From Micromonospora rhizosphaerae (GTDB taxonomy: Bacteria; Actinomycetota; Actinomycetes; Mycobacteriales; Micromonosporaceae): a stretch of DNA of 64,000 nucleotides. The stretch is from NCBI RefSeq assembly GCF_900091465.1, contig NZ_FMHV01000002.1, positions 2,542,001 through 2,606,000 on the forward strand. Reading direction: 5' to 3'. The notes below the pieces were generated by a model. The model searched no databases, was not told the DNA's origin, and worked only from the letters and a program-made list of their open reading frames with translations. Numbering within the stretch: position 1 is the first letter of the stretch; each line of letters begins with the position of its first letter. The position numbers were made by a program, and so were the translations under genes. Positions 30,061 through 59,740 of this stretch are shown here, one piece after another.

Positions 30061-31089
30061 ATGGGTGGCACCAAGGCAGCAGTCGAGGAGATCGAGGTCG
30101 CCGGGCACACCGTACGGCTGAGCAGCCCGGACCGACTGATCTTCCCGCAGCGCGGCTTCACCAAGGCGGACGTCTTCCACTACTACCTGTCGGTCGGCGA
30201 GGGGATCATGCGCGCCCTGCGGGACCGGCCCACCACGCTGCAGCGCTTCCCCCAGGGCATCGAGGGGGAGATGTTCTTCCAGAAGCGGGTGCCGGCCCGG
30301 GGCGTCCCCCCGTGGATCCGCACTGCGGAGATCAGCTTCCCAAGCGGCCGGACGGCCGCGGAGCTCTGCCCCGCCGACCTGGCGCACGTCGCCTGGGCCG
30401 CCCAGATGGGCACGGTGGTGTTCCACCCCTGGCCGGTCCGCGCCGCCGACGTGGACCGCCCCGACGAGCTGCGGATCGACCTGGACCCGCAGCCCGGCAC
30501 CGACTTCGCCGACGCGGCGGCCGCCGCCGGCGAGCTGCGCGGGCTGCTGGCCGAGCTGGGCGCCATCGGCTGGCCGAAGACCTCCGGCGGCCGGGGCGTG
30601 CACGTCTACCTGCGCATCCACCCGCAGTGGACGTTCGTCGAGGCGCGCCGGGCGACGATCGCGCTGGCCCGGGAGCTGGAACGCCGCCGTCCCGACCTGG
30701 TCACCACCGCCTGGTGGAAGGAGCAGCGGGGCAGCCGGGTGTTCGTGGACTTCAACCAGATGGCCCGGGACCGGACGATCGCCTGCGCGTACTCGCTGCG
30801 GGCCAACGCCCGGGCCACGGTCTCCACCCCGGTCGACTGGGACGAGCTGACCGAGGTCGATCCGGACGACTTCGACCTGGGCAGCGTGCCGGCCCGGCTG
30901 GCCGAGCGGGGCGACCCGCACGCCGGCATCGACGACGCCCCGTGGGACATCACCCCGCTGCTGGAGTGGGCCGAGCGGGACGCCGCCGCCGGCCAGGGCG
31001 ACCTGCCGTACCCGCCGGACCATCCGAAGATGCCCGGCGAGCCGAAGCGGGTGCAGCCCTCCAAGGACCGCGACCGGCCCCGGGGCTGA
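30061..31089 (+). CDS. LigD-type polymerase/primase domain protein (NHEJ)
   Basis: 342 residues. It is the stand-alone polymerase domain of bacterial NHEJ: RLIFPQRGFTKADVFHYY near the start, catalytic D140 and D142 in LRIDLDPQPG, H181 in SGGRGVHVYL and D230 in VFVDFNQ. There is no ligase or nuclease module; an ATP-dependent ligase lies separately at 43628-44740. No ribosome site precedes the ATG, and a TATCGT -10-like box ends 6 bases before it, so the mRNA may be leaderless. No Ku gene is in the window. Confidence 0.93.
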   Translation: MGGTKAAVEEIEVAGHTVRLSSPDRLIFPQRGFTKADVFHYYLSVGEGIMRALRDRPTTLQRFPQGIEGEMFFQKRVPARGVPPWIRTAEISFPSGRTAAELCPADLAHVAWAAQMGTVVFHPWPVRAADVDRPDELRIDLDPQPGTDFADAAAAAGELRGLLAELGAIGWPKTSGGRGVHVYLRIHPQWTFVEARRATIALARELERRRPDLVTTAWWKEQRGSRVFVDFNQMARDRTIACAYSLRANARATVSTPVDWDELTEVDPDDFDLGSVPARLAERGDPHAGIDDAPWDITPLLEWAERDAAAGQGDLPYPPDHPKMPGEPKRVQPSKDRDRPRG

Positions 31090-40204: not shown

Positions 40205-40328
40205 GCCGGCAGCCTGACACAGCGACCCCCGGCGATAGAAAGACGTTCTGCGTGTCGATGCAGGACGTAGGAACGTCCCCCTGATGCGCTTGTCGGGCTT
40301 GGTGTCCCATCGCAGGAGGAGGACGTTC

Positions 40329-41681
40329 ATGGGTAACGGTAGCGGCGTGTCCCGGGGTGACCGCAACCGCAACGCGCGGCTTGCTCGGTTGCGGGTGCTG
40401 GTCCCGGCCACGAACGCGATCGTCGGCATTGATCTGGCAGATAAGAAGCAGATGGTCGTGGTTACCGATCATGACTCGAAGGTGTTGGCGCGCAAGACGT
40501 TCAGGTGTCGGGCGTGGGATCTGGGTGCGGCGTTGGACTGGGCCGCTGAGCGGGCCGCGGTGAAAGGCTGGGCGGGGGTGACGGTGGCGTGCGAGCCGAC
40601 CGGGCACCGGTGGCGGGTGCTCGGGCAGCTGGCCGCGGACCGGGCGATGCCGTTCGTGTGCGTGCAGCCGATGCTGACGTCGTGGGCGCGGCGCAGTGAG
40701 GACCTGACCTCGGACAAGACCGATGAGAAGGATGCGGTGCTGATCGCCCGGCTGACCGCGCAGCTGCGCTGCTACGTACCCGAGCCGGTCGATGAGACCT
40801 GGGGCCGGCTGCGGCATCTGGGCGCCCGCCGCGAACAGCTCGTCATCGAGATGGTCAGCCAAATCCAGCAGATCCGCGCGCTGCTGGAGTGCGTCTGGCC
40901 CGCCGCGCTCGATACCGCCAAGCAGCCGTTCCGCTCCCGCACCTGGGCGGCGGCGATGACGGTGATCTGCGATCGTGACGGCGGTGACCTCGCCCGCACC
41001 CGACGCCTCGGCGCGGCCCGGTTCGAGCAGGCGGTGCGCCGTGAGATCACCCGCCGGGGTGGGTGCAAGCCCTCGCTGCGCATCCTGCGGCACCTGTTCA
41101 CCGCGTTGACCGACCCCACCGGGGTGACCGCCCACCGGCCCGGCGCGCTGGAGCGGGTCGCGTTCCTGCTGCAGGACTGGCAGGCCGCCGCCGACAAGCT
41201 CGCCGACACCGAGACCCGGATGACCGACGTCCTCGACGAGCTCAAGCTGACCGAACTGGTCACCTCCATCCCCGGCCTATCGGCCGTCGGCGCCGCGGCG
41301 ATCCTCGCCGAGACCGGTGACCCGAACCGGTTCGCCACCGCCCGTGCCCTGGTCAAGCACGCCGGCCTCGCGCCGCGGGAGAAGCTGTCGGGCACGTTCG
41401 TTGGTCGCACCAAACTCACCGGCCAGGGCCGGCCCGCGCTGCGTCTGGCCGCCTGGCGGGCGGTCTGGGGCGCCCAGCGCGGCAACGCCGTTTACGCGGC
41501 CCGCTACCACCATCTGACGACGCGGGAGACCAACAGGCTCACCGCAACCCAAGCCCAGACCGTGATCGCCGCGGCGATCCTGCGCCAGTTGCACGCCGTG
41601 ATCACCACCGGCCAGGCCTGGGATCCCCACATCGCAACTCACGGTGCAAACGGCCGCCGGCAGCTGGCTCTGGCCGCCTGA
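40329..41681 (+). CDS. IS110-family transposase (DEDD)
   Basis: 450 residues, ATG with an AGGAGGAGGA box. The N-terminal RuvC-like domain carries the DEDD set: D35 (GIDLADKK), E89 (ACEPTGH), D132 and D135 (DKTDEKDA). The C-terminal Transposase_20 domain (about 315-405) reads SIPGLSAVGAAAILAETGD, then KHAGLAPREKLSGTF with the candidate catalytic serine, and GRPALRLAAWRAVW. The frame is complete, so the element may be active. Enzymes of this family are guided by an element-encoded bridge RNA. Confidence 0.95.
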   Translation: MGNGSGVSRGDRNRNARLARLRVLVPATNAIVGIDLADKKQMVVVTDHDSKVLARKTFRCRAWDLGAALDWAAERAAVKGWAGVTVACEPTGHRWRVLGQLAADRAMPFVCVQPMLTSWARRSEDLTSDKTDEKDAVLIARLTAQLRCYVPEPVDETWGRLRHLGARREQLVIEMVSQIQQIRALLECVWPAALDTAKQPFRSRTWAAAMTVICDRDGGDLARTRRLGAARFEQAVRREITRRGGCKPSLRILRHLFTALTDPTGVTAHRPGALERVAFLLQDWQAAADKLADTETRMTDVLDELKLTELVTSIPGLSAVGAAAILAETGDPNRFATARALVKHAGLAPREKLSGTFVGRTKLTGQGRPALRLAAWRAVWGAQRGNAVYAARYHHLTTRETNRLTATQAQTVIAAAILRQLHAVITTGQAWDPHIATHGANGRRQLALAA

Positions 41682-43627: not shown

Positions 43628-44740
43628 CTACGCCGGGCCCGGTGCGCTGCCGGCGGCCGCCGCCGGATCCCCGCGCAGCACCTGGTCCACGTCGAAGCGG
43701 ATCGGGCGGTCGAGCTGGTCGTAGCGGCAGGAGCGGGGATCGCGGTCCGGACGCCAGCGGACGAACTGGGCGGTGTGCCGGAGCCGGTCGCCCTCCATCG
43801 CGTCGTAGCCGACCTCGGCCACCAGCTCCGGGCGCAGCGGCTCCCACTCGAGGTTCTTCGTGCCGGTCCACCGGCTCACCCCGCCGGGGATGCGCTGGCC
43901 GCGCTCGTGGTCGCCGTGCACCCACGGGTGGTCGCCGCCGACGTCGCGGTACGGCGCCAGCTCCGCCAGCAGCTCCTTGCGGCGGGCCGCGGTGAACGAC
44001 GAGCTGACGCCGATGTGGTGCAGCACCCCGGCGTCGTCGTAGAGGCCGAGCAGCAGCGAGCCGACCACCGGGCCGGACTTGTGCCAGCGGAAGCCGGCCA
44101 CCACCACGTCGGCGGTGCGGGCGTGCTTGACCTTGAACATCAGCCGCTTGCCCGGCTCGTACGGCAGGTCGGCCGGCTTGACGATCAGGCCGTCCAGCCC
44201 GGCGCCTTCGAAGACCTCGAACCAGCGGCGGGCGGTCTGCGGATCCGTGGTGATCTGGGTGACGTGCACCGGCGGGCGGACCTTGGCCAGCGCCTCCTCC
44301 AGGCGGGCCCGGCGCTGCGGGTAGGGCTGGTCCAGCAGCGCCTCGTCGTCGATGGCGAGCAGGTCGAAGGCGACGAAGTCGGCCGGGGTGGTCTCGGCGA
44401 GCAGCTTGATCCGGGAGGCGGCCGGGTGGATCCGCTGGGCGAGCAGCTCGAAGTCGAGCCGGGGCTGGCCGCCCGGGCCGTCGCGGCGGATCACGATCAG
44501 CTCGCCGTCGACCGCGCACCGGGACGGCAACTGGCTGCGCGCCTGCTCGACCACCTCGGGGAAGTAGCGGGTCATCATCTTGCCGCCCCGGCTGGCCAGC
44601 TCGACCTCGTCACCGTCGCGGAAGATGATGCAGCGGAAGCCGTCCCACTTCGGCTCGTACGTCATGCCGGCGGCGGTGGGGAGCTGGGGCACGCTCTTGG
44701 CCAGCATCGGCTCGACCGGCGGGTTGATCGGCAGGTCCAC
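43628..44740 (-). CDS. ATP-dependent DNA ligase
   Basis: 370 residues, GTG start. Motif I is EPKWDGFR with the adenylated K31, followed by RGG (motif Ia region), a VDGEL motif III, FDLLAID, motif IV DGLIVKP and motif V FKVKH. An OB-fold domain follows (about 215-330), including GGVSRWTGTKNLEWEPLRPELVAEV in outline. It matches LigC/LigD ligase modules. The separate LigD-type polymerase at 30061-31089 could be its partner in end joining. No polymerase or phosphoesterase domain is fused. Confidence 0.93.
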   Translation of the reverse strand: MDLPINPPVEPMLAKSVPQLPTAAGMTYEPKWDGFRCIIFRDGDEVELASRGGKMMTRYFPEVVEQARSQLPSRCAVDGELIVIRRDGPGGQPRLDFELLAQRIHPAASRIKLLAETTPADFVAFDLLAIDDEALLDQPYPQRRARLEEALAKVRPPVHVTQITTDPQTARRWFEVFEGAGLDGLIVKPADLPYEPGKRLMFKVKHARTADVVVAGFRWHKSGPVVGSLLLGLYDDAGVLHHIGVSSSFTAARRKELLAELAPYRDVGGDHPWVHGDHERGQRIPGGVSRWTGTKNLEWEPLRPELVAEVGYDAMEGDRLRHTAQFVRWRPDRDPRSCRYDQLDRPIRFDVDQVLRGDPAAAAGSAPGPA

Positions 44741-46111: not shown

Positions 46112-47032
46112 TCAGAAGCGGGCGAAGGAACGGATGGGGGCGCGTGGGCCGTACCTCGGCGCCTGGATGCCGGCCGCCTCCAGCAGGACGCAGACCCGGC
46201 CACGGTGGCCCCGGAACGGCTCCAGCAGCGCCAGCATCCGGGCGTCGTCGCCGCGCGGCTCACCGGCCAGCGCCCAAGCCACCGTGTTCGGGATGTGGTA
46301 GTCGCCGACGCTGACCGCGTCCGGGTCGCCGTACGCGATCCGCACCACCTCGGCGGCGGTCCACGGGCCGATGCCGGCGATGGCGGTCAGCCGGCGGGTG
46401 GCCTCGGCGGCGTCCACGCAGCGTTCCAGCCGGTCCGCGGCGGCGGCCGCGCGGCGCAGCGTCTCGGCCCGCCGCTGCTCCACGCCGAACGGGTGGAAGA
46501 CCCAGTACGGCGTGACGGCCACCGCGGCCGGCTCGGGCGGCAGCAGCAGCGGCGGCAACGGCCCCGGCGCCGGCTCCCGGAAGTGTCTGACCGTCGCCGC
46601 GTACGCCCGGTAGGCCTCCTTGCCGGTGACCTTCTGCTCGAAGACCGCCCGGAGCAGCCGAGGGAAGATCTGCCCGGTGGCCGGCATCCGCAGCCCGCGG
46701 TGCTGGGCGGCCAGCCGGGCCACCACCGGGTGCGCGGTGGCGAGGTCGGCGAACCCGGTCAGGTCGTCGCGCAGGCCGGCCACCGCGTCCGCCCGCTCCA
46801 CCACCCAGTCGGCCCCGGGGCCGTAGCCCTCGGCGACCAGCTCACCACCCGCCGGGCGGAGGGCGAGGGTGGCCGGCCCGGCCGGGGTGCGGGTGGCCCA
46901 CCAGAACGTGCCCGCGGCGAGCCGGGCGCACGGGTCGTACGGGCTGAAGGTGAGTGCCCGGACCGAGGCGGCCAGTCGGTAGTCGGCCGGCGGGTGCAGG
47001 GTCCGGCTGGCGGCGGGTCCGGATGGGGTCAC
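46112..47032 (-). CDS. AlkA-like DNA-3-methyladenine glycosylase (HhH-GPD)
   Basis: 306 residues from the GTG at 47032. An AlkA-like N-terminal domain (about 18-100) precedes the helical HhH-GPD domain. The helix-hairpin-helix is LTAIAGIGPWTAAEVV (215-230) and the catalytic aspartate is D244 in SVGDYHIPN. It excises alkylated bases. The frame continues upstream to 47203 without a ribosome site, and that extension lacks family similarity. It is convergent with the DUF1990 gene. Confidence 0.9.
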   Translation of the reverse strand: MTPSGPAASRTLHPPADYRLAASVRALTFSPYDPCARLAAGTFWWATRTPAGPATLALRPAGGELVAEGYGPGADWVVERADAVAGLRDDLTGFADLATAHPVVARLAAQHRGLRMPATGQIFPRLLRAVFEQKVTGKEAYRAYAATVRHFREPAPGPLPPLLLPPEPAAVAVTPYWVFHPFGVEQRRAETLRRAAAAADRLERCVDAAEATRRLTAIAGIGPWTAAEVVRIAYGDPDAVSVGDYHIPNTVAWALAGEPRGDDARMLALLEPFRGHRGRVCVLLEAAGIQAPRYGPRAPIRSFARF

Positions 47033-47512: not shown

Positions 47513-49444
47513 ATGATCGCGCTCAAGCTCTACCGCACCCTGCCGCAGGGGATGCGGCGCCGACTGATCGCGGTGCTGCCCCAGCACCGCCGGCTCAGCC
47601 TGGTGCGCACCCTCACCCGGCCGAGCGGCGGCGACACCGTGCGTGTGATCGGTTCGCGGGTGACCGTCAGCGACGGCGGCGCGCGGACCGAGGCCGAGGT
47701 GGTCGCCGCCGCAACGCCGCTGCAGATGTGGCACCGCAACCTCACCGCAGTGACCACCGCCCTGGCGGCGGCCGGGATCGACCACCACTGCCTGCGCAAC
47801 GACGACTACCTGCGCAGCTCGGTGGCGGTGCTCGAGGACCGGCGGGCCGAGGTGCTCCGGCTGGTCCGCTCCGCCCCGGCGCTGTCCGGCGCGCATGTCC
47901 GCGTGGTCGAGGTACGGCCCGGGCGGAACCAGCCCGACCTGACGCCCACCGAGGTGATCCAGGTGTGGTTCCCGGTGACCGACGTCCGGGCGGGCGTGGT
48001 CCTGGGCGTCCAGTTCGCCTGCGAGATCGAGTTCTGGACGCGGGTGGGCGACGTCGTTCGCGCGCCCCGGCACAACGCGGTGGTCGACGAGGCGCCGGCC
48101 TGGGCGGAGCCGGTCCGGGTGGCGGCCGCGCTGATCAGCCACTTCGTCCCGGAGGCGGACGACCGCACCTACCGCACCCGCCGAGACCTCACCGTGCGCG
48201 CCCCCGACCGGGTGGGCTTCCCGATCGACGCCGTCTTCACCTGGGTGGACGGCTCGGATCCGGAGTGGCTGCGCCGGAAGGAGGCCGCGCTCGGCACCCC
48301 CGGCGGCCTGCTGCACGCCGTCGCGGCGAACACCTCCCGCTACCACAACCGCGACGAACTGCGGTACGCGATGCGCTCGCTGCACAGCTTCGCGCCCTGG
48401 CTGCGCCGGATCTTCCTGGTCACCGACAGTCAGCTGCCCAGTTGGCTCGACCCCAATCACCCGATGGTCACCGTCGTGACCCACGCCGAACTCTTCGCCG
48501 ACCTCGGCGGGCGGTCGTCGTTCAACTCGCACGCGATCGAGTCCCGGCTGCACCGGATCGAGGGCCTCGCGGAGCACTTCCTCTACTTCAATGACGACGT
48601 CTTCCTGGGCCGACCGCTGCTGCCCACCCACTTCTTCCACGCCAATGGGATCGCGAAGTTCTTCCTCTCCCCGGCCCAGTTCGGCCTCGGGGAGGCGAAG
48701 CCGAGCGACCCGCCGGTGAACGCTGCCGGGAAGAACAACCGCTGGCACATCCAGCGGCAGTTCGGCGTCACCATCACGCAGAAGATGAAGCACACCCCGT
48801 TCGCGCTGCGGCGCAGCATCATGTACCAGATCGAGCAGGTGCTGCAGTCGGACGTGATGGCGACGGCGCGGCACCAGTTCCGGCACCACGGCGACCTCTC
48901 CATCCCGTCGTCGCTGTACCAGTACTGGGCCTACCTGACCGGTCAGGCTGTGCCGGGCGACATCGAGTACGAGTACGCCGACCTCGGCCACCCCTCGACG
49001 CCCGCCCGCCTCGCCGAACTCCTGGCCCGCCGGCACCGCGACGTCTTCTGCCTCAACGACACCGACTCCGACCCGGAGGTCTTCACGGAGCAGGAGAGCA
49101 TGCTGGCCGACTTCCTGCCCCGATACCTGCCCTTCCCCGCACCGTTCGAGCTGCCCGACCACGTGGTCGCCGAGCGCCGGAAGCTGGGGGCGACCGCCCT
49201 GTGGCGGCAGGCCCGAAGCGGCGACCGGCACGGCAGGCAGGTGGACGCGGCGACGACTCCCTCGCTCCGGGTCGGCAGGCAGGTGGACGCGGCGACCGCG
49301 GCTAGAGTGCGGGTCAGCCCCCGGCTGGACGCGCCCACCTTGCCCTCGGTCCGCATCGCTGCCGCCCGCGCCGTCGACCACGACAAGGCCGCGCCACCCG
49401 GAGCCGGACCTTCCACCGCGTTAGGAGAGGCGCGAGATGCCTGA
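47513..49444 (+). CDS. Stealth-family sugar-phosphate transferase, copy 1
   Basis: 643 residues. An N-terminal domain shared with the other two copies (about 60-215; VTTALAAAGIDHHCLR, CEIEFWTR) precedes the four Stealth regions: CR1 at about 238 (IDAVFTWVDGSDPEW), CR2 (NRDELRYAMRSLHSFAPW, then IFLVTDSQ), CR3 ([12 protein letters not shown]) and CR4 (DVFCLNDTDSD). Stealth enzymes move hexose-1-phosphate onto a growing polymer. The C-terminal tail of about 95 residues contains two GRQVDAAT repeats and looks disordered. The start ATG lacks a good ribosome site. The next gene overlaps its end by eight bases. Confidence 0.93.
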   Translation: MIALKLYRTLPQGMRRRLIAVLPQHRRLSLVRTLTRPSGGDTVRVIGSRVTVSDGGARTEAEVVAAATPLQMWHRNLTAVTTALAAAGIDHHCLRNDDYLRSSVAVLEDRRAEVLRLVRSAPALSGAHVRVVEVRPGRNQPDLTPTEVIQVWFPVTDVRAGVVLGVQFACEIEFWTRVGDVVRAPRHNAVVDEAPAWAEPVRVAAALISHFVPEADDRTYRTRRDLTVRAPDRVGFPIDAVFTWVDGSDPEWLRRKEAALGTPGGLLHAVAANTSRYHNRDELRYAMRSLHSFAPWLRRIFLVTDSQLPSWLDPNHPMVTVVTHAELFADLGGRSSFNSHAIESRLHRIEGLAEHFLYFNDDVFLGRPLLPTHFFHANGIAKFFLSPAQFGLGEAKPSDPPVNAAGKNNRWHIQRQFGVTITQKMKHTPFALRRSIMYQIEQVLQSDVMATARHQFRHHGDLSIPSSLYQYWAYLTGQAVPGDIEYEYADLGHPSTPARLAELLARRHRDVFCLNDTDSDPEVFTEQESMLADFLPRYLPFPAPFELPDHVVAERRKLGATALWRQARSGDRHGRQVDAATTPSLRVGRQVDAATAARVRVSPRLDAPTLPSVRIAAARAVDHDKAAPPGAGPSTALGEARDA

Positions 49445-51500
49445 TCACCTGGAGTGGGTCGAGCCGGTGCTCGCGCTCGCCCGTCGGGCCGCCCGGTTGC
49501 CGCGCGGTGCCCGGACGCCGTTCGCGCCCGTCGGGCGGCCGCGGTCGATGGCCGTCATGGCGCACCAGGACGACGACCTCTACTTCCTCAACCCGCTGCT
49601 GGTGAGCCAGCTGCACAGCAGCGAGGAACACCTGACCGTCTGCCTGACCGCGGGCGAGGGCGACGGCCGCAACGCGCCGGGCGGCACCAGGGAACACGCC
49701 GCCGCGCCGGTCGACTTCGAGGCCTTCGCGGCTGCCCGGTTCAACGGGCTGCGCTGCGCGTACGCCGACATGGTGCTGGGTGACCGGGACGCCAAGTGGC
49801 GCCGCGAGGTGACCACCCTGGCCGGCGGGGCCGAGGCCGACGTGTCGGTTCTGGTCGACGCGCCGCACGTCCGGCTGGTCGCGCTCAATCTCTGGTGCGC
49901 GCCCCCGCCGGACGCGGCTCCCGGCTCCGGTCCGCTGACCCGGCTCTGGACGGGCGAGGCCACCTCGACGCCGACGATGGTTCCGCTCGGGTCCCCGGTC
50001 ACGGGGACCCACAGCTATTCCCGGGACAGCCTGGTCGAGTCCCTCGTGGAGCTGATGCGGCGCTTCGAGCCCACCCTGCTGTGGACGATGGACCCGGATC
50101 CCGACCTGCAGGTGCACGACCGGGCCAACCCGCGGTACGCGGACACCGGGGACTACTCGGACCACATCTTCCACACGATCACCGGCCTCTTCGCCCACGA
50201 GGCCGCCGCCCGGTGGTTCGCGGAGGGGGGCGGTCGCCGCACGTCGGTCGAGGCGTTCCGCGGCTACTACGTCCGGCGCTGGCCGTCCAATCTCAGCCCG
50301 GAGGCGCGCGCCCGGAAGCAGCGGTACAAGGACGTGTACGGGTGGGCCGACCGCCGCCCGAGCGGCGATCCCGCCGGCCTGGGCGACCGGAAGGTCGGCG
50401 GCGACCTGATCGCCGGCGGCAACGCCTCCGGCACCACGCTGCGCTATCCCGGCTCGCGATCCTGGGCCGGTCCCGGGGCCGACGGCCGGCTCTCCGCCTT
50501 CGCGGTCCGGGGCGGACAGGTCGTGCACTGGCGGGAGGATCGCCCCGGCGAGTTCGCCGGGAGTCGGCGGGTGCCGGGGCGCAAGCTGCTGCCGCACGTG
50601 GACGCCGTGCCGACCGCGGACGGCGGCTGGCGCCTGTTCGCCGTGCGGCAGGGGCTGACCGCCGACCCGGCCCAGCACGTCCGCGACCTGTGGACGATCC
50701 TCCTGCCGGCCTCCGGCGACTACCGGGACGTGCGGTGGGAGTCGCTGGGCAACCCCAACGCGCAGAGCGGGCCCGCGAAGCGGCGCAACATCGGCATGCC
50801 GCAGGCCGTTTCGCTCCCCGGTGGCCGACTGCTCGTCCTCACCAGAAACGCCGGCAAGGGGCTGAGCGGTCGGCTGCACGACGGCGCCACCTGGACGCCC
50901 TGGCGGGACCTCGGCGGTGGGGACACCCAGGAGGGCCTGACCGCGGTCGCCCTGGACGACGGGTCGGTCGAGGTGCTCGCCGCGGGCCGCAACGGCATCG
51001 CCCGCTGGCTGGTCTCCACGGCGGGGGAGCTCACCGCCAAGTTCTCGGTGGTGCGCACCGAGGCGCCCGCGGGGCCGCCCACCGTGGTGCGGTTGCCCGA
51101 CGGCAGCCGGATGATGTTCTGCCGGTGCCGGGACTCGGCGTCGGTCGTGTCCTTCCGCACCCGCGGCGACGGCCAGGTCTGGGACCCGTCCAGTCTCGTC
51201 GACCTCGGCGGTCATGGCGGGCCCGGTCCGATCGCCGCCCGGTTCGTCCCGGACAGGCGCGAAGTGCTGGTCGCCGTCCGGGACGATGCCTCGGCGACGA
51301 GCGTGCTCCGGGTGGGGCCCGACGGCCGGGCCCGCGGCACCTGGCTGCGGGAGGCCACCCCGGTCGCCGGCAGTCACGCGGTGTCGGTCGACTCCTCCGG
51401 GCGGCCCGTCGTGCTGGCGGTCTCCGCCGGCGGCGGGTTGCTCACCCTGCCGGTGACGCCCTCGACGTCGTCGGTCAGCTCGATGAAGGAAGTTCCGTGA
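49437..51500 (+). CDS. PIG-L deacetylase fused to a beta-propeller
   Basis: 687 residues. The N-terminal domain (about 35-300) is PIG-L/LmbE-like: the metal motif reads AHQDDD (42-47) instead of AHPDD(E), and the third ligand region is SDHIFH (H243, H246). The rest (about 330-685) has repeated units such as VHWREDRPGEFAG, WTPWRDLGGGD and GIARWLVSTAGEL, typical of a sialidase- or lectin-like propeller. Zinc-dependent removal of N-acetyl from a sugar is expected, in line with polymer modification. The gene starts within the upstream Stealth gene and ends at the start of the next (GTGA). Confidence 0.9.
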   Translation: MPDHLEWVEPVLALARRAARLPRGARTPFAPVGRPRSMAVMAHQDDDLYFLNPLLVSQLHSSEEHLTVCLTAGEGDGRNAPGGTREHAAAPVDFEAFAAARFNGLRCAYADMVLGDRDAKWRREVTTLAGGAEADVSVLVDAPHVRLVALNLWCAPPPDAAPGSGPLTRLWTGEATSTPTMVPLGSPVTGTHSYSRDSLVESLVELMRRFEPTLLWTMDPDPDLQVHDRANPRYADTGDYSDHIFHTITGLFAHEAAARWFAEGGGRRTSVEAFRGYYVRRWPSNLSPEARARKQRYKDVYGWADRRPSGDPAGLGDRKVGGDLIAGGNASGTTLRYPGSRSWAGPGADGRLSAFAVRGGQVVHWREDRPGEFAGSRRVPGRKLLPHVDAVPTADGGWRLFAVRQGLTADPAQHVRDLWTILLPASGDYRDVRWESLGNPNAQSGPAKRRNIGMPQAVSLPGGRLLVLTRNAGKGLSGRLHDGATWTPWRDLGGGDTQEGLTAVALDDGSVEVLAAGRNGIARWLVSTAGELTAKFSVVRTEAPAGPPTVVRLPDGSRMMFCRCRDSASVVSFRTRGDGQVWDPSSLVDLGGHGGPGPIAARFVPDRREVLVAVRDDASATSVLRVGPDGRARGTWLREATPVAGSHAVSVDSSGRPVVLAVSAGGGLLTLPVTPSTSSVSSMKEVP

Positions 51501-53143
51501 ACGACGCCCTCCCCGGTCCGCAGACGCTCCCGACCCCGGCGGTCTCCGCGCCGGCCGGGTGGCCGGCGCCGGCCACGCCGGCCGGTGAGCCGGACGACAT
51601 CCGCGAGGTGCTGGTCGACGGGGGACGCCGCCGCGCCCACATGCACGCCGACCTCAGCCCGCTGCGGGGCCGTCAGCTCAACGTCGCCGCGGTGGCCGGC
51701 GCGCTCGAGGCGCACGGCGTGGACCACTTCCTCGTCCGGGGCATGGACGACCGGACGCCGGTGATCGGCGTCAACGAGGAGGACCGGGTCGCCGCCCTCG
51801 GCGCCCTGGAGAAGCTCGGCGCGGCCGGCCCCTGCTACGTGAGCCAGGTGCTGCCGAAACCGCCGATCGTCAGCGCGCTGCGGGACGCCGCCGATCCGGC
51901 CGCCTGGGTCGACCTGCACCGGGCGCGGGCGCTCAAGATGACCTGGTTCCGGATCGACCCGACCGAGAAGCTGGTCCTCGGCGCCGCGTACGGGTGCGAG
52001 ATCGAGTTCTGGCGGCCGGACCGGAAGGCCGACGTGCTGCGCGCGCCGCGCCGCAACCGGATGATGCCGGCGGTGTCGATGGCCGGCGTGCCGGTGGAGG
52101 TCGGCGAGCACCGGTTCACCCGGCTCGCCGCGGCCACCAAGCCGGGCCCGCGCTTCCGCACCCGGCCGGAGTTCGATCACTCGCTCCCGGACGACATCGA
52201 CTTCCCGATCGACGTCGTCTACACCTGGGTGGACGGCGCGGACCCGGAGTGGCAGCGCCGCCGGGCCGAGGTCAAGGGCGAGGCGTTCCACGCCGAGGCC
52301 GCCAGCGAGTCGCGGTACATCAACCGGGACGAGCTGAAGTACTCGCTGCGGTCACTGCACCTCAACGCGCCCTGGGTACGCAACATCTACATCGTGACCG
52401 ACCGGCAGCGGCCGGCCTGGCTCGACCTGAGCGCCGGCAACATCTTCCTGGTCAACCACGAGGACATCTTCCCCGACCGGAGCGCGCTGCCGACGTTCAA
52501 CTCGTGCGCGATCGAGAGCCAGCTGCACAACATCGACGGCCTCGCCGAGCACTTCCTCTACCTGAACGACGACATGTTCTTCGGCCGGCCGCTGGCGCCC
52601 CAGACCTTCTTCCTCGCCAACGGCAACACCAAGTTCTTCCTGTCCCAGAACCGGATCCCGATCGGCCCGATCACCAGTCTCGACAGCCCGGTCGACGCGA
52701 TGATCAAGAACAACCGGCGGCTGATCGAGGAACGGTTCGGCCGGACCCTGACCCAGGGCAGCCAGCACGTGCCGTACCCGCTGCGGCGGAGCATCCTGGC
52801 GGAGATCGAGCGCGAGTTCCCGGCGGAGCACGCCCGCACGGTGCGGAGCAGGTTCCGCAGTGCCACCGATCTCACCATCACCTACTCCCTGCACCACTAC
52901 TACTCCTTCCTGACCGGGCGGGCGCTGCCCGGCCACGTCAACTACGGCTATGTCCAGCTGGCGGTGCCGGATCTGGCCGCCCGACTGAAGCGGGCCGAGG
53001 CGCGTCGGGACTGGGACACCTTCTGCATCAACGACGCGTTCTCGACGTACGCCCAGCTCCAGCAGCAGATGGCCATCCTGGAACCGTTCCTGGAGGCGTA
53101 CTTCCCGGTGCCCAGCCCGTACGAGTCGGCAGGCCAGCGGTGA
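51497..53143 (+). CDS. Stealth-family sugar-phosphate transferase, copy 2
   Basis: 548 residues from a GTG overlapping the PIG-L stop. A Pro/Ala-rich start (1-35) is followed by the shared N-terminal domain (VAGALEAHGVDHFLVRG, GCEIEFWRPDRKADV) and Stealth CR1 at about 236 ([17 protein letters not shown]), CR2 (NRDELKYSLRSLHLNAPW), CR3 (HFLYLNDDMFFG) and CR4 (DTFCINDAFS). It lacks the long C-terminal tail of copy 1. Its stop overlaps the start of the GT4 gene (GTGA), so translation is coupled. Confidence 0.93.
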   Translation: MNDALPGPQTLPTPAVSAPAGWPAPATPAGEPDDIREVLVDGGRRRAHMHADLSPLRGRQLNVAAVAGALEAHGVDHFLVRGMDDRTPVIGVNEEDRVAALGALEKLGAAGPCYVSQVLPKPPIVSALRDAADPAAWVDLHRARALKMTWFRIDPTEKLVLGAAYGCEIEFWRPDRKADVLRAPRRNRMMPAVSMAGVPVEVGEHRFTRLAAATKPGPRFRTRPEFDHSLPDDIDFPIDVVYTWVDGADPEWQRRRAEVKGEAFHAEAASESRYINRDELKYSLRSLHLNAPWVRNIYIVTDRQRPAWLDLSAGNIFLVNHEDIFPDRSALPTFNSCAIESQLHNIDGLAEHFLYLNDDMFFGRPLAPQTFFLANGNTKFFLSQNRIPIGPITSLDSPVDAMIKNNRRLIEERFGRTLTQGSQHVPYPLRRSILAEIEREFPAEHARTVRSRFRSATDLTITYSLHHYYSFLTGRALPGHVNYGYVQLAVPDLAARLKRAEARRDWDTFCINDAFSTYAQLQQQMAILEPFLEAYFPVPSPYESAGQR

Positions 53144-55380
53144 AGTACTCCTTCCTCATCCACAACTTCTACGGCGTGGGTGGCACCAATCGGGCGGTGC
53201 TGAACCTGGCCACCGCGCTGCTGGAGGGCGGACACCAGGTCGAGGTCGCGTCGGTGTTCCGCCGGCTCGATCGGACCATGTTCGACGTCGACGAGCGGAT
53301 CACCGTCGTACCACTGGTCGACACCAGGCCACGGCGGCCGGACCGGTCCAATCCGCGGCACCGGGAACCCTCGACACTGATCCCCGAGACCGAGGAGTTC
53401 CACCTGCACTACAGCCGGCTGACGGATGAGCGGATCGTCCGCTACCTCCGGTCCACCGACGCGGATGTCGTCGTGGGCACCCGGCCGGGGCTCAACCTCG
53501 CCGTGGCCCGGCATGCCCCGGAGCATGCCGTGCGCGTCGCGCAGGAGCACATGACGCAGGACCTGATCGACGACGCGGTGAAGGCCGAGATCCGCCGGTA
53601 CTACCCGCGCATCGACCTGGCGTACACCGTCACGAGCGCGGACGCGGCCGCCTTCCGCGCCGGCAACCCGGTGCCGGGCACCCGGATCGAGGTGCTGCCC
53701 AACAGTTCGCCACCACCCGGCGTCCCGCCCGCCGACGGGCGGAGCAGGATCGTGGTGGCGGCCGGGCGGCTCGACCCGATCAAGCGGTACGACCGACTGA
53801 TCACCGCCTTCGCCCGGGCGGCGGTGGACTGTCCCGGTTGGACCCTGCGGATCTACGGCGACGGCGAGCAGCGGCAGGCGCTCGCCGCGCTGATCCGGGA
53901 GCTGGGCGTCTATGACCAGGTCCAGCTGATGGGCCGCCGCGATGACATGTCGACGGAGTGGGTGAAGGGGGCCATCGCCGCCGTCTCCTCGGAGCGCGAG
54001 TCGTTCGGCATGACGATCGTCGAGGCCATGCGGCTCGGCCTGCCGGTGGTCAGCACCGACTGCCCGGTGGGTCCGCGCGAGATCATCGACGACGGTGAGG
54101 ACGGTCTGCTGGTCCCGAGCGACGACCTCGACGCGTACACCGGCGCGCTGCTGACGCTGATGCGGGACGACGAGGTGCGTGCCCGGATGGGCAAGGTGGC
54201 TCTGGCCAACTCCGCTCGCTTCGATCCGGCCCACCTGGCCGCCCAGTTCGCTCGCGACTGCGAAGAGGTGCTGACCGTCCGGCGCGCGGAGCCGCCCCGG
54301 CGCCCGCGGGCCGGGCGCCGGGTGCCGAGGAGCGGGTTGACCCGGTCGGTCCTCGCCCGGGGCGGCGAGCTGCTCCGGGAGCCGGACCTGGTCCGGACGC
54401 TGGCCGATCCGGTGCTGCGCGGGATCGCGGGGAACGACCTCGCTCGACGGGCGAGCATGGGGGCGCTCGTGCGGCTGGCGCGGGTCCGGCGGGTGCGGGG
54501 CACCAGCACGCGGCTGCAGCAGGCGATCCGGCGGCGAGTCTCGGCCCCGACCGACGGTCCGATCGTGGACTGCCTGGTGCTGCCCGACTTCGGACTGCAG
54601 TGGTCCGTCGACGCGGCGACCTGCGCTGGCGAGGCGTCGGTCGTGCTGCGCAACCGCGACACCCGCGAGGTCGTCCAGGTGGCCCTCGCCCCGGCGGTCG
54701 ACGGCCTCCGGCACGTCGGCACGCTGGCCGCGGCCGCCCTGCCCGAGGGTCGGTGGAATGTCTATCTGATGGACGGGCAGGGAGTCCGGCGCCGGGTGCG
54801 CCCGCAGCGGCTCGACAGCCGGTTCCTCGCCGGCGGGCCGGACGACGGACCCGCCGGGGGGCTGTCGGGGGTGCGGGCGCACGTGCCCTACCGCACCGCC
54901 GACGGCTTCCTCGCGGTGCGCAGCTGGGTGCGCGCCGCCCACGCCGAGGTTCGCCGGATCGCGCTCGACGGCGAGGACGTCACGATCGCGTTCACGTGGC
55001 ACGGACCGGGCATCCCGGACGGCGCGGTGCTCCGTCGCCGGGGCGACCGACCGGAGTCGCTCGCCGTGTCGACCGCGTCGGCGACCGACGGGACGATGAC
55101 CATGCTGGTGCCCCTGGCGCCGCTGACCGACCTCCGGCTGGGCCGCTACGAGGACTGGGACATCTTTCTCCGGCAGCCCGGCGGCCTCGACGAGGTCCGG
55201 CTGGGGCGGTTCGTCGACGACGTGGTCGACAAGAAGCGCACCTACAACTATCCGGAGATCCATCTGGCCCAGGAGGTGGAACTGGACCTGGTCGAGGAGG
55301 ACCCGGCGCCGACGCTGCGGGTGCGCCCCTACTACACGATCGACAGTGAGCTGTCGATCGTCGTCATCGACCGGCCGTAG
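53140..55380 (+). CDS. GT4 glycosyltransferase with long C-terminal extension
   Basis: 746 residues. The N-terminal 380 residues form a GT-B enzyme: [20 protein letters not shown] at the start, [15 protein letters not shown], and the donor-site E-x7-E in [20 protein letters not shown] followed by CPVGPREII. This resembles retaining transferases of wall teichoic acid type. The last 360 residues (from about 54280) begin with a basic linker and then show beta-rich, Ig-like stretches ([15 protein letters not shown], ending [13 protein letters not shown]) that recall the accessory domains of some wall-polymer polymerases. Membrane segments are absent. Confidence 0.9.
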
Positions 55381-55405
55381 CCCTGACCCGAAGGAGAGGA
55401 CCGCG

Positions 55406-57172
55406 GTGAGCGAGCCGAGGCAAGGGCGGTCGGACACCCCCCGGGCCGTCGCCGAGCCGACGAGGTTCGTCGACACCTACCGTCGGGTGCTCAGCCCGCA
55501 GGCCCGCCGGGCCATCGCCAAGCGGTTGAGCCCGCAGACCCGTCACCAGGTCAAGCAGTGGGTGGCCCAGGTGACCGGCGACCAGCAGCCGTCCGTGCGG
55601 CGGGGGGAGCGGCTGGCCCGCCGCCAGCCGGAGCTCCTGGCCGGCGGCGACCGCGTGCTCGTCACGGTGGATCGGCGGGCCCGGGTCGCTCTGGTCCGCC
55701 CGGAGGTGTCGCCCTGGTCGGCCCGGGCCGCCAACCTCGCCGCGGTCACGGCGGCGCTCGCCGAGGCCGGGGTGGAGCACTTCTGCGTACGCGGCCGCTC
55801 CGACCGCAACGCGGTGGTCGCCGTCGACGCCGCCGACCGCGACCGGGTGTACGCGGCGCTGGCCGAGGCCTGCCGCCGACTGCCCGGGTACGTCTCCGAG
55901 GTGACCGGCGATCAGCCGCGGTCGTCCGCGCCGGGCTTCGAGCCGCACGCGTGGCGACGGCTGCGCGACGCCAACGTGCTCCGGATGACCTGGTACTGGA
56001 CCGACCCCCGGCACCGGCTGGTGCTCGGTGTGCCGTACGGCTGCGACGTGGAGCTCTGGACCCGGCGGGAGGACCGGCTGGTCGCCCCCCGCCGGAACCT
56101 GGTGACGGAATCGGTGCCGGTGGTGGGTGCCGTGGTCCACGCGCCCGCCGACCTGTTCACCGTGCTGGGGCCGACCACTCCGGCGGTGACGGTCCGGACC
56201 CGTCCGGAGTTCGCGATCCGGCTCCCCGGGGACGTGACGTTCCCGGTCGACGTCGTCTACACCTGGGTGGACGGCACCGATCCGGAGTGGCTGCGCCGGC
56301 GCGCCGAGGTGGCCGGTACGCCGTATCACGCTGAGTCGGCGAGCGCCGCGCGGTTCCTCAGCCGGGACGAGCTGCGCTACTCACTGCGCTCGCTGCACAC
56401 CTACGCCCCCTGGGTGCGTACCGTCTACCTGGTCACCGACGACCAGGTGCCGCCCTGGTTGGACCGTTCGGCCCCGGGCCTGCGAGTGGTCAGCCACCGG
56501 GAGATCTTCCGCGATCCGTCCATGCTGCCGACGTTCAACTCGCACGCCATCGAGAGCCAGCTGCACCACATCGAGGAGTTGTCCGAGCACTTCCTCTACT
56601 TCAACGACGACGTCTTCCTCGGCTGCGAGGTCACCCCGAAGGACTTCTTCCTGGCCAACGGCATCACGAAGTTCTTCCCCTCGCCGGCGCTGGTGCCACC
56701 AGGGCCGCCGTCGGCGGACGACATCCCGGCCTCAGCCGCCGGCAAGAACAACCGACGGCTGATCGCGGAGCGCTTCGGCACGGTGCTGACGCAGAAGATG
56801 AAGCACATGCCGCACGTGCTGCGGCGCAGCGTGCTGTACGAGATCGAGGAGACGTTCCCGGCCCAGCACCGGGGCACCGCCGGCAACCGCTTGCGCAGCA
56901 TGGCCGACATCTCGATCGCCTCGTCGCTGCACCACTACTACGCTTTCCACACCGGTCGCGCGGTGCCGGGGGAGCTGGAATACACCATCGCCGAGCTGTC
57001 CCATCCCGACACGCCCGCGCGCCTCGCGCACCTGCTCGCGCGACGGGACCGGCACGTCTTCTGCCTCAACGACGCCTTCTCCACGGAGGAGGACATGGCC
57101 GCCCAGCTGTCGATCCTCACGCCCTTCCTGGACACCTACTTCCCCGTGCCGAGCCCCTGGGAGAAGAGCTGA
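55406..57172 (+). CDS. Stealth-family sugar-phosphate transferase, copy 3
   Basis: 588 residues, GTG with an AAGGAGAGGA box. The shared N-terminal domain (about 100-240; [35 protein letters not shown]) is followed by CR1 at about 279 ([17 protein letters not shown]), CR2 ([18 protein letters not shown]), CR3 ([12 protein letters not shown]) and CR4 ([10 protein letters not shown]). The FNDD and LND acidic residues are intact in this copy as in the others. Last gene of the cluster, 25 bases after the GT4 gene. A small inverted repeat follows its stop. Confidence 0.93.
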
Positions 57173-57326: not shown

Positions 57327-57980
57327 TCAGTACGAGTAACCCGAGCTGCCGCCGTCGGAACTGCCCGAGTCGCCCGACGACGGCGGGGCGACCGGCTTCG
57401 GGGTGCCGGTGGGCAGGCAGGTCAGGTTCTTCTTGCCGTTCCGGTCGACCACGAACCAGGTGCCGCCGACACCCTGGCCCTTCCACTGGCCGGGCTTCTT
57501 GTCGCCGATGTACCGGTAGACCGGCCAGCCGCCGATGGTGATCTGCCGGGTGCCGTCCTGCCGGGTGACCGTGCCGACCTTGTCGTCGGAGACGCCCTGA
57601 AGCTCCGGGTTGCCGTCGGTCAGCGCGGGCGGCCAGACCTTGGCGCACTTGTCCACGCAGTTGGACGACGGCGGGTCCGCCGAGTCCTTGTCGAAGCGGT
57701 AGAGGATCCAGCCGTCCTGGTCGGTCACCACGTTGCCCATCCGGGCGACCTTCTTGCCGATCAGCCGTTCGGTGAGCCGGACGTCGGCCGGCGGCGCCTG
57801 GTCGTCGGTGGCCTCCGCGCTCGCGGTGGCTTCCGGTTCGGCCGTCGCGGTGGGTTCGGCCGCGGCGACGGCGACCGGCTCGGCCGCGCTCGAGTTCGCC
57901 CCGTCGTAACCCGCGGGAGCGCAGGCCGTTAGTGCAACCATCGCGCTCGCGGCGATGACGGTCCGCTTCATCTGTGCCAC
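57327..57980 (-). CDS. Lipoprotein with two YxFxxD-type secreted repeats
   Basis: 217 residues from a GTG with an AGGAGG box; an ATG at 57971 is the alternative. The lipobox is VALTAC with C20. An Ala/Glu/Thr/Pro-rich linker (25-65) leads to the PF03640-type 'secreted repeat' domain with LYRFDKD (Y94-D99) and VYRYIGD (Y155-D160) and two cysteines at C108/C112. A Ser/Gly tail ends in YSY. It lies downstream of the sigma/anti-sigma pair on the same strand, with 200 bases between, and may belong to its regulon. Biochemical role is unknown. Confidence 0.88.
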   Translation of the reverse strand: MAQMKRTVIAASAMVALTACAPAGYDGANSSAAEPVAVAAAEPTATAEPEATASAEATDDQAPPADVRLTERLIGKKVARMGNVVTDQDGWILYRFDKDSADPPSSNCVDKCAKVWPPALTDGNPELQGVSDDKVGTVTRQDGTRQITIGGWPVYRYIGDKKPGQWKGQGVGGTWFVVDRNGKKNLTCLPTGTPKPVAPPSSGDSGSSDGGSSGYSY

Positions 57981-58180
57981 GTGCCCTCCTCATGCTTGGC
58001 AGTTCACGGGGTAGTACGGCCCGTTCTCTGTCAAGGTTGAAGGCGAAAGCGTGCTGCATTTCACAGTGGATCCGTTGAACCGTTCCGGGGCCCGGCAAGT
58101 GACCGAGCACGTCGGCTCCTCCTCCGCCGGGCACGCCGAAGCGGCGCCGGGGCACTGCCCGGCGCCGACGTCGTGGCGGG

Positions 58181-58966
58181 TCAGAGGTCGGCCACCGTCA
58201 CCAGCGGGCTGGCCACCCCCTTCGCGTCGATCGACTGCACCTGGATCTTCTCGATGTCGTCCCGTCCGGCGGAGGTGGACGCGGTCAGCTCCAGCGGGAG
58301 CTGATTGCTGTTGGTCCCGTAGCCGCCGCCCGGCACGGCCCAGGTCGAGATCACCTCGGTGGTGGAGTTCTTCCGGATCACCACCAGTCGGCAGGTGCGC
58401 GGCCCGGGCAGCTTGGCGAGCTGAAGGTCGATCCTGGTGCCGTACTCCTTCGAGGTGAGCCACATCGTCGTCTTCACCCCGGTGGTCGGATCGGTGGCGT
58501 CGTGCTGCTCGCCCTCCTGCTCATTACCGCCGATGTTCGGGTCGTTGGGGTCGGCCGGGACATCGCTCGGCGGGGCGGTGACCGGCGTGGTCAGGGTCGG
58601 CTCCGCGTACGGGACCCGCTCGTCGCCGATGCCCGCGATGCCGGCGATGCCGACGCCGCTGACGCCGCCGAAGACCACCACGGCCGCCGCCGTGGCGAGC
58701 AGCTGGCGGAACCGGGCGCGCCGCCGGTCGAGCCGCACCGCCATCAGGGTCCGGTCCAGCAGGGCGGGATCGGTGTGGGTCTGCTCCAGGGCGGTCATGG
58801 TCTCCCCGTCGATCCCGGAGAGCAGCCCCACCACCGGCACCATGGTCTCCAGCTCCGCCGCGCACGCCCAGCAGGTGGCGAGGTGCTCCTCGAACCGCTC
58901 GGTGTCCTGTTGATCCAGCACGCCCAGCGCATACGCGGCCACGTCCAGGTGATCTGCCCGGCTCAT
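58181..58966 (-). CDS. Anti-sigma factor with zinc-binding motif (RskA-like)
   Basis: 261 residues. The cytoplasmic N-terminus has the ZAS motif H28-x3-C32-x2-C35 (EEHLATCWAC). One membrane segment (about 88-112) is followed by an Asp/Pro-rich linker and an RskA-like extracytoplasmic domain with MWLTSKEYGTRIDLQL and TWAVPGGGYGTN. Its ATG overlaps the sigma factor stop, so they are made together and should bind each other. The sensed signal is unknown. Confidence 0.93.
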   Translation of the reverse strand: MSRADHLDVAAYALGVLDQQDTERFEEHLATCWACAAELETMVPVVGLLSGIDGETMTALEQTHTDPALLDRTLMAVRLDRRRARFRQLLATAAAVVVFGGVSGVGIAGIAGIGDERVPYAEPTLTTPVTAPPSDVPADPNDPNIGGNEQEGEQHDATDPTTGVKTTMWLTSKEYGTRIDLQLAKLPGPRTCRLVVIRKNSTTEVISTWAVPGGGYGTNSNQLPLELTASTSAGRDDIEKIQVQSIDAKGVASPLVTVADL

Positions 58967-59523
58967 TCCGTCACCCCCCGCTCCTGGAGAGCCGTGCGCA
59001 GCGCGCGCAGCGCGTAGTAGACCCGCGACTTGGCGGTGCCGAGCGGAAGGCCCAGCTCCGCGGCCGCCTCCGGCACCGTCCGCCCCCGGAAGTACGTCGC
59101 CACCAGGATCTCCCGGTGCGACTGGCTCAGCGTACGCAGCGCGTCCGCCACCGTCATCGTCCGCAGGACCCGGTCCGTGCTGTCCGCCTCGGCGAACGCG
59201 GTCAGGTCCCGGTCGTACGTCTCGGTCGGGCGGGCCTGTTCGCTGCGGTGCTCGTCGATGGCGATCCGCCGGGCGACGGTGACCAGCCAGGGTCGCAGCG
59301 ACCCCTGCCCCTGCGTGCCCAGCCGGTGCGCGTTGCGCCAGGCGCGCAGCAGCGTCTCCTGGACGATGTCCTCGGCGCGCTGCCGGTCGCCGCCGGTCAG
59401 TCGCATCACGAACATCAGCAGCGGGCCGGCGTGCTCGGCGTAGAGCAGCCGGATCAGCTGGTCGGAATGACTGACCTCAGTGGAGGCTGCCTGGTGGCGT
59501 CCGGGCACCGGTCGCGGCGTCAC
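58963..59523 (-). CDS. ECF-family RNA polymerase sigma factor
   Basis: 186 residues from the GTG at 59523. Region 2 (about 30-95) contains AEDIVQETLLRAWRNAHRL; region 4 (about 130-180) contains LRTLSQSHREILVATYFRGRT and the helix-turn-helix VPEAAAELGLPLGTAKSRVYYALRAL. An ATG at 59658 has a good CGGAGG box and would add 45 unusual residues; the GTG is preferred because the product then has normal ECF length. The stop overlaps the anti-sigma gene. SigK-like by pairing, but the exact group is not certain. Confidence 0.93.
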   Translation of the reverse strand: MTPRPVPGRHQAASTEVSHSDQLIRLLYAEHAGPLLMFVMRLTGGDRQRAEDIVQETLLRAWRNAHRLGTQGQGSLRPWLVTVARRIAIDEHRSEQARPTETYDRDLTAFAEADSTDRVLRTMTVADALRTLSQSHREILVATYFRGRTVPEAAAELGLPLGTAKSRVYYALRALRTALQERGVTE

Positions 59524-59740
59524 CGGGCCATTCTGGCGATCGCCGGGACACCCGTCGACCCCATGGCCCGACCCCGACGCGCGCGACGGCTGGGCCCGGG
59601 CGAACATCCACTCGGGCCTTGCCATGTCGCCCTGCCAGCCGGCCGCCACCGCATGCATGCAGACCTCCGGGTGTCCAATGACATCAGCCGGCCCCCACGG
59701 GCATGGCCGCCCGGTGATACGGAGTGACCCGCCGAGCGGA

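Follow-up and report, generated by a model that had tools for sequence, protein, structure and literature searches.

A three-Stealth gene cassette with GT4 and PIG-L partners in Micromonospora: a probable locus for a phosphodiester-linked surface glycan

Five tightly packed genes and their products

A stretch of 64,000 nucleotides from Micromonospora rhizosphaerae (contig NZ_FMHV01000002.1, positions 2,542,001 to 2,606,000; hereafter the window) carries a cluster of five genes, encoding three Stealth-family proteins (Stealth1, Stealth2 and Stealth3), a PIG-L/propeller protein and a GT4 glycosyltransferase (Table 1). An earlier note made from the sequence alone had proposed such a cluster, and all five genes were confirmed on the + strand, closely packed. 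With the starts chosen, the first four genes overlap by 8, 4 and 4 nucleotides, Stealth2 overlapping both of its neighbours by 4 nucleotides. Stealth3 begins 25 nucleotides past the GT4 stop; its start at 55406 was preferred over the long open reading frame start at 55346 because a ribosome-binding site, GAAGGAG, precedes the former. The genome (7.18 Mb, three contigs) contains exactly three Stealth_CR2 matches, all of them in this cluster within a span of 8.4 kb.

Pfam domains CR1 to CR4 all exceed their curated cut-offs in Stealth1, Stealth2 and Stealth3, bearing out the claim of three full Stealth proteins, and the extra N-terminal domain that the note ascribed to all three proved real. CpsY, a Stealth-family exopolysaccharide phosphotransferase (PDB 8j2n), has been reported to need residues E305, N322, D324 and R419 for activity (PMC10668966). 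Residues E383, N400, D402 and R497 of Stealth3 have the same spacing and are invariant in 46 of 46 aligned Stealth proteins, the three of the window included. An AlphaFold2 (AF2) model of Stealth3, with a predicted local distance difference test score (pLDDT) of 89.9, matches the CpsY and GNPTAB structures over its catalytic half. The window's Stealth proteins are 41-52% identical in pairwise comparison. In a tree of 105 catalytic domains (FastTree, midpoint rooting) they occupy separate clades shared with other genera; Stealth1 clusters with other genera of the Micromonosporaceae, and the region that holds Stealth2 and Stealth3 also contains sequences from a family taken as Streptomycetaceae. 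Separate clades and retention of the four residues essential in CpsY argue that the three are old, probably active paralogs. A recent tandem triplication was rejected on the same clade distribution. The presence of one inactive copy among the three was rejected because each keeps all four catalytic residues.

Degenerate Stealth copies were found in other loci. At one of them (L087, 5465-7090) the middle Stealth, lying between two intact ones, matches CR2 only, and its CR1 and NDD motif appear to be lost; low-scoring copies occupy the equivalent place in L173 and L174. Such degenerate paralogs, flanked by intact Stealths or, where a contig ends, next to a single one, are likely pseudoenzyme partners. 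Tandem pairs of divergent Stealth genes, forming two clades of their own, were seen at L176, L177, L178 and L186; their best matches are 36-40% identical to the window's proteins, and no GT4 or PIG-L turned up when the fetched stretches were searched with profiles.

When the N-terminal domain, a candidate for a LicD/FKRP-like nucleotidyltransferase fold, was compared with a shallow four-sequence LicD alignment, hhalign returned a non-significant probability of 0.4%. In that non-significant alignment the LicD aspartates are unmatched by conserved acids, the sole invariant acidic residue of the domain being a glutamate, and PF04991 (LicD) is absent from the families listed for 39 members of the domain. 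A PDB search with the domain alignment gave weak matches to unrelated kinds of protein, the best (E 0.015) to a deaminase-domain protein. NCBIfam gave no match for the Stealth or PIG-L proteins.

The second gene had been described as a PIG-L/propeller fusion. The PIG-L part stands, with PF02585 scoring 35.7 bits against a cut-off of 28.2; the propeller is indicated by a sub-threshold BNR_2 match (18.7 against 31.4 bits) and a precomputed PF26607 assignment on the window's own protein, the label "PLL-like beta propeller" coming from the name given to one listed relative. H43, D45 and D46 are kept in 41 of 42 aligned sequences, and D242, H243 and H246 in all 42. We take the AHxDD sequence together with the distal histidine to be the metal-site motif; it is conserved, and the protein is a predicted deacetylase. 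Inspection by eye and hydropathy revealed no apparent signal peptide or membrane helix in the window's protein; some Streptomyces relatives start with what looks by eye like a lipoprotein signal. A sequence search of solved structures found no match for the protein.

GT4 domains (by Pfam) and a GT-B fold were confirmed for the fourth product. Over residues 1-382 its AF2 model matches known GT4 structures, BshA and TarM among them, and all NCBIfam families among the matches listed (25 of 30) fall below their own cut-offs. The protein carries a further beta-rich C-terminal domain of about 300 amino acids, which the note had not mentioned. This domain is homologous to a stand-alone protein, here called c2 (hhalign probability 99.5%, E 2.8e-22); no Pfam match was found in the two c2 proteins scanned.

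Table 1. Genes of the cluster and its borders in the window, and the alternative central genes in three relatives (coordinates of the latter refer to the fetched loci)
Feature	Position	Strand	Size and evidence
Stealth1, first gene, constant left cassette member	47513..49444	+	643 aa; CR1-CR4, catalytic E/N/D/R kept, own clade
PIG-L deacetylase domain + beta-propeller	49437..51500	+	687 aa; PF02585, PF26607
Stealth2	51497..53143	+	548 aa, GTG start chosen; CR1-CR4
GT4 glycosyltransferase	53140..55380	+	746 aa; Pfam, AF2 model
GT4 C-terminal beta-rich domain, about residues 440-746	54460..55380	+	hhalign match to stand-alone c2
Stealth3, constant right cassette member	55406..57172	+	588 aa, GTG start; CR1-CR4, AF2
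Left border gene, c5	46112..47032	-	about 306 aa; no Pfam match; c5 profile matches 46115-47032
Right border gene, Lipoprotein_15	57327..57980	-	PF03640; marker for locating the site across the genus
GT2 + TagF-like protein gene, L142	3226-5967
GT2 + TagF-like protein gene, L160	3288-6029
GT2 + TagF-like protein gene, L171	3223-5952

Conservation and exchange of modules between constant flanks

When named genomes were searched with the PIG-L protein, six loci were retrieved, from Micromonospora fulviviridis, M. veneta, M. globbae, M. craterilacus, M. parva and M. noduli, and in all six the five genes have the same order and the same flanks. These loci were selected by PIG-L and therefore cannot reveal layouts that lack it. 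The comparison of neighbourhoods shows the order to be syntenic in relatives, and chance neighbourhood, which the note had named as what would speak against its proposal, was rejected on this kept order and on the confinement of all Stealth_CR2 matches in the genome to the cluster. Ratios of nonsynonymous to synonymous substitution (dN/dS) against three of the named relatives are 0.11-0.34 across all five genes, which are thus under purifying selection. More widely, Stealth_CR2 matches occur in 67 of 150 genomes of the Micromonosporaceae (3 of 19 within the window's own genus) and in 45 of 150 genomes of the family taken as Streptomycetaceae, 41 of these above the cut-off.

The site was then followed through the genus by its right-border protein, which is present in 56 of 61 genomes, the window's own included. 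It was fetched from 40 genomes; 15 others were left, having contig-end or weak matches or not being taken. Genes were called by third-position G+C, so lower-G+C genes can be missed; three such genes in L170 were recovered by gap lengths, the open reading frame list and profiles, and loci that were not rechecked may miss genes. In 31 of the 40 genomes the site is empty, since the border genes are only 132-494 bp apart. The remaining nine are occupied, in six layouts. The full five genes are present in L161 and L168, and L158 has Stealth1-Stealth2-GT4-Stealth3 with PIG-L missing. L142, L160 and L171 have Stealth1 and Stealth3 around a GT2/TagF-like protein of 909-913 amino acids. Stealth1-Stealth3-c2-GT4:Stealth is found in L146, and Stealth1 facing Stealth1'-c2-GT4:Stealth in L170. 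In L133 a deletion has left a remnant that includes pieces of GT4 and CR4. In one more genome (G146) the modules are spread over two contigs, the first carrying Stealth1-Stealth3-PIG-L' and the second c2-GT4:Stealth next to the right border.

The GT2-TagF-like protein takes the place of PIG-L, Stealth2 and GT4, with Stealth1 and Stealth3 retained on either side. In L142 it matches GT2 and PF04464 at 104 and 124 bits, and the L171 protein is alike; the L160 protein was assigned by length and start. We infer from this exchange that the centre may be one functional slot, that of the polymerase, and that Stealth1 and Stealth3 would serve whichever polymer is made.

GT4 and Stealth were found in one reading frame at 19 loci: 9 of 20 in L041-L060, 1 of 20 in L087-L106 (L105), 7 of 15 in L173-L187, and L146 and L170. 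Loci with clustered Stealths were chosen deliberately, and these counts are not frequencies. Pfam places GT4 and CR1 to CR4 above cut-off in all four fusions scanned (L041, L042, L105 and L146), and c2 lies beside the fusion in 18 of the 19 loci. Because c2 is the GT4 C-terminal domain occurring as a separate protein, the same three modules are present, by sequence, in two arrangements: as Stealth2 and GT4 with its C-terminal domain in the window, and as c2 and GT4:Stealth elsewhere. Most fusion Stealth domains form a clade of their own, with that of L105 standing apart. L105 (8852-11620), from another actinobacterial family, is the locus without c2, a lone GT4:Stealth gene.

Among 150 genomes, Stealth co-occurs with a PIG-L relative (E up to 0.001) in 42 of the 52 genomes that have one, against 25 of the 98 that do not (Fisher p 1e-10, uncorrected for kinship). 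Of 47 located PIG-L places, nine weaker ones having been dropped beforehand, 17 lie within 8 kb of a Stealth gene. Pairs of a single Stealth and PIG-L occur in L058-L060. Since L158 lacks PIG-L, and PIG-L is often unlinked in other places, it is associated with Stealth and not obligate, and on these distributions is best seen as an optional modifier. In the M. noduli locus (L066, 10013-13606), PIG-L and Stealth2 lie in one open reading frame of 1197 amino acids.

A proposed polymerase pair and its alternatives

The cluster is quite probably a phosphoglycan surface-polymer locus in the broad sense, and the note's view is supported in that a phosphodiester-glycan pathway is the likeliest class. 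For the more detailed mechanism we estimate a probability of roughly 55%. It proposes an exchangeable cassette whose products assemble, in the cytoplasm, a cell-surface glycopolymer with phosphodiester links that resembles a teichoic acid or a capsule. The polymerase would consist of Stealth2 and GT4, GT4 adding an alpha-linked sugar and Stealth2 a sugar-1-phosphate in alternation, giving a poly(glycosyl sugar-1-phosphate); the GT4 C-terminal domain might be a structural or polymer-binding part of it. Stealth1 and Stealth3 would transfer sugar-phosphates onto structures common to the polymers (linker, chain end or side branch), a role comparable to that of transition transferases, and the PIG-L/propeller protein may provide optional N-deacetylation of a sugar. 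Export and wall attachment would depend on genes elsewhere, for example LCP ligases and a transporter of the tagGH type. What was observed directly is which genes are present, their conservation and paralogy, and the swapping and fusion of modules; from these we infer the chemistry, the sugars and the order in which the steps occur, as well as where the product is located and how it is exported. One polymerase pair with two Stealths of constant role is favoured because the centre is swapped as Stealth1 and Stealth3 stay, and because GT4:Stealth fusions exist.

Several observations weigh against this mechanism. In the tree, Stealth2 is placed away from the Stealth domains of the fusions, of which it is not the ortholog, and the identity of nine fusion GT4 domains to the window's GT4 is no more than 33-39%; the equivalence of Stealth2 plus GT4 with GT4:Stealth therefore rests on organisation, not orthology. 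Of 20 loci in other families fetched with GT4 (L087-L106), mostly with the C-terminal domain fused or adjacent, 18 have no Stealth in 18 kb, the exceptions being L087 and L105; such GT4s therefore often work without a neighbouring Stealth. By Pfam, the five genes include no exporter, flippase or priming enzyme, as the note had also stated, and the cluster has no nucleotide-sugar gene.

TarM is a wall teichoic acid alpha-N-acetylglucosamine (GlcNAc) transferase, and the resemblance of the GT4 fold to it raises the alternative that these proteins add sugar-phosphate side groups to a teichoic or teichuronic wall polymer that is already there, no separate polymer being made. This view fits L093 and L095, where GT4s with the same C-terminal domain adjoin IspD+SDR genes and TagF-like genes that match weakly (25 bits), and where no Stealth lies in the vicinity. 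It also fits L045, from another genus, where a Stealth-Stealth-GT4-PIG-L cluster adjoins a teichoic-type gene set of two TagF-like genes (24 and 30 bits; cut-off 22), one IspD gene, two CDP-alcohol transferase genes and one ABC ATPase gene, with an ABC-2 permease about 3 kb further on. The GT4:Stealth and GT2-TagF-like fusions, however, resemble polymerases and not single-sugar decorators, by analogy with described capsule enzymes (PMC5974469), and we regard decoration as doubtful.

The earlier note had suggested a polymer whose phosphodiester-linked units are of several kinds, together with deacetylation; on this model every Stealth would contribute its own kind of unit to a single complex repeat, which the deacetylase would trim. 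Three divergent, probably active paralogs in separate clades, kept together in all six named loci, would suit such a repeat. Its case is weakened by the persistence of Stealth1 and Stealth3 around the GT2-TagF-like centre, by the GT4:Stealth fusions elsewhere, by the missing PIG-L of L158 and by the pairs of a single Stealth with PIG-L, so that the several-unit polymer now appears unlikely. A product other than a surface polymer (a glycolipid, a phosphoglycosylated protein or a small molecule) would agree with the lack of an exporter and with the eukaryotic GlcNAc-1-phosphotransferase among Stealth relatives, which acts on glycoproteins, but the TagF-like exchange and the variation of cassettes at one site fit polymer loci better, making it highly improbable.

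The polymerase proposal can be extended, tentatively and with odds well short of even, to a site that acts as a polymer-type switch. Stealth1 and Stealth3 would then be adaptor or end-capping transferases that link different phosphoglycans to a shared carrier, the polymerase being either of the Stealth+GT4 sugar-1-phosphate or of the TagF-type polyol-phosphate kind, under diversifying pressure such as that on phage or toxin receptors. We know of no adaptor or end-capping role in the Stealth family.

Related systems and genomic surroundings

The chemistry of phosphate-containing wall glycopolymers in actinomycetes is known, and to our knowledge few genes have been assigned to them. For Streptomyces this chemistry is documented (PMC11481543). 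Among its polymers, poly(diglycosyl 1-phosphate), with the ligase PdtA, is of a kind that a GT4+Stealth pair could make; the available text of that paper links no Stealth gene to it. Capsules with phosphodiester bridges are reported to be polymerised by Stealth transferases (PMC5974469, PMC10299916). CpsY was studied as a single enzyme, in the accessible part of PMC10668966, whereas the window combines three paralogs with GT4 and PIG-L. Another likeness is to the bifunctional GT + TagF-like capsule polymerases of Gram-negative bacteria, in which a glycosyltransferase/phosphotransferase pair makes a teichoic-like polymer (PMC5974469), and the alternative centre at the window's site is itself a GT2-PF04464 protein. 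In the window, by contrast, the phosphotransferase is a separately encoded Stealth and the glycosyltransferase a GT4; CslB, the source of that family's discovery, is stated in the same source, as far as available, to have no similarity to Stealth transferases.

The role proposed for Stealth1 and Stealth3 recalls the transition transferases of capsule priming, which join a variable polymer to a constant anchor (PMC11666461). Those described in the accessible sections of that paper are TagF-like (CpsA) or of the LicD family (CpsC), not Stealth, and the role in the window is a proposed one. In the Micromonosporaceae, the gsf surface-glycan cluster of Actinoplanes missouriensis contains the Stealth protein AMIS_70380, and deletion of the whole cluster gives small sporangia (PMC13390465). 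It differs in having one Stealth, with GtrA- and GT2-type genes, and PIG-L goes unmentioned in the text available. A literature search, with most subscription papers outside it, found no description of a Stealth/GT4/PIG-L cluster.

The site provides natural strain pairs for comparison: between shared flanks some strains have no cassette, others the Stealth+GT4 or the GT2-TagF-like one. It also suggests species-specific surface chemistry of the kind used as a receptor in antagonism; umbrella toxins, for instance, are reported to bind variable Streptomyces wall polymers (PMC13274773).

That export must use other genes, as had been argued, is consistent with a row of ABC-2 permease, ABC ATPase, IspD+SDR and TagF-like genes in the window's genome (contig C2, 2,872-2,877 kb), about 270 kb from the cluster. 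This tagGH-tarIJ-tagF-like row is a candidate export partner. Ten LCP matches were found in the same genome.

A promoter scan found none, and a terminator scan found two, against 1.8 in shuffled sequences, both on the opposite strand within genes. The left flank holds the 306-amino-acid border gene and genes for a DNA ligase, a TAP-like hydrolase and an IS110 transposase, and the right flank genes for Lipoprotein_15, zf-HC2 and an extracytoplasmic function (ECF) sigma factor. The latter three (57327-59658) are convergent with the cluster and adjoin the cassette in all six named loci, and the lipoprotein gene is found at empty sites too. The IS110-family transposase gene (40284-41681) was seen in the window only, among 47 site sequences, some of which do not cover that interval. 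A gene for a LigD primase-polymerase domain (30061-31089) and one for an ATP-dependent DNA ligase (43628-44740) are spaced about 12.5 kb apart.

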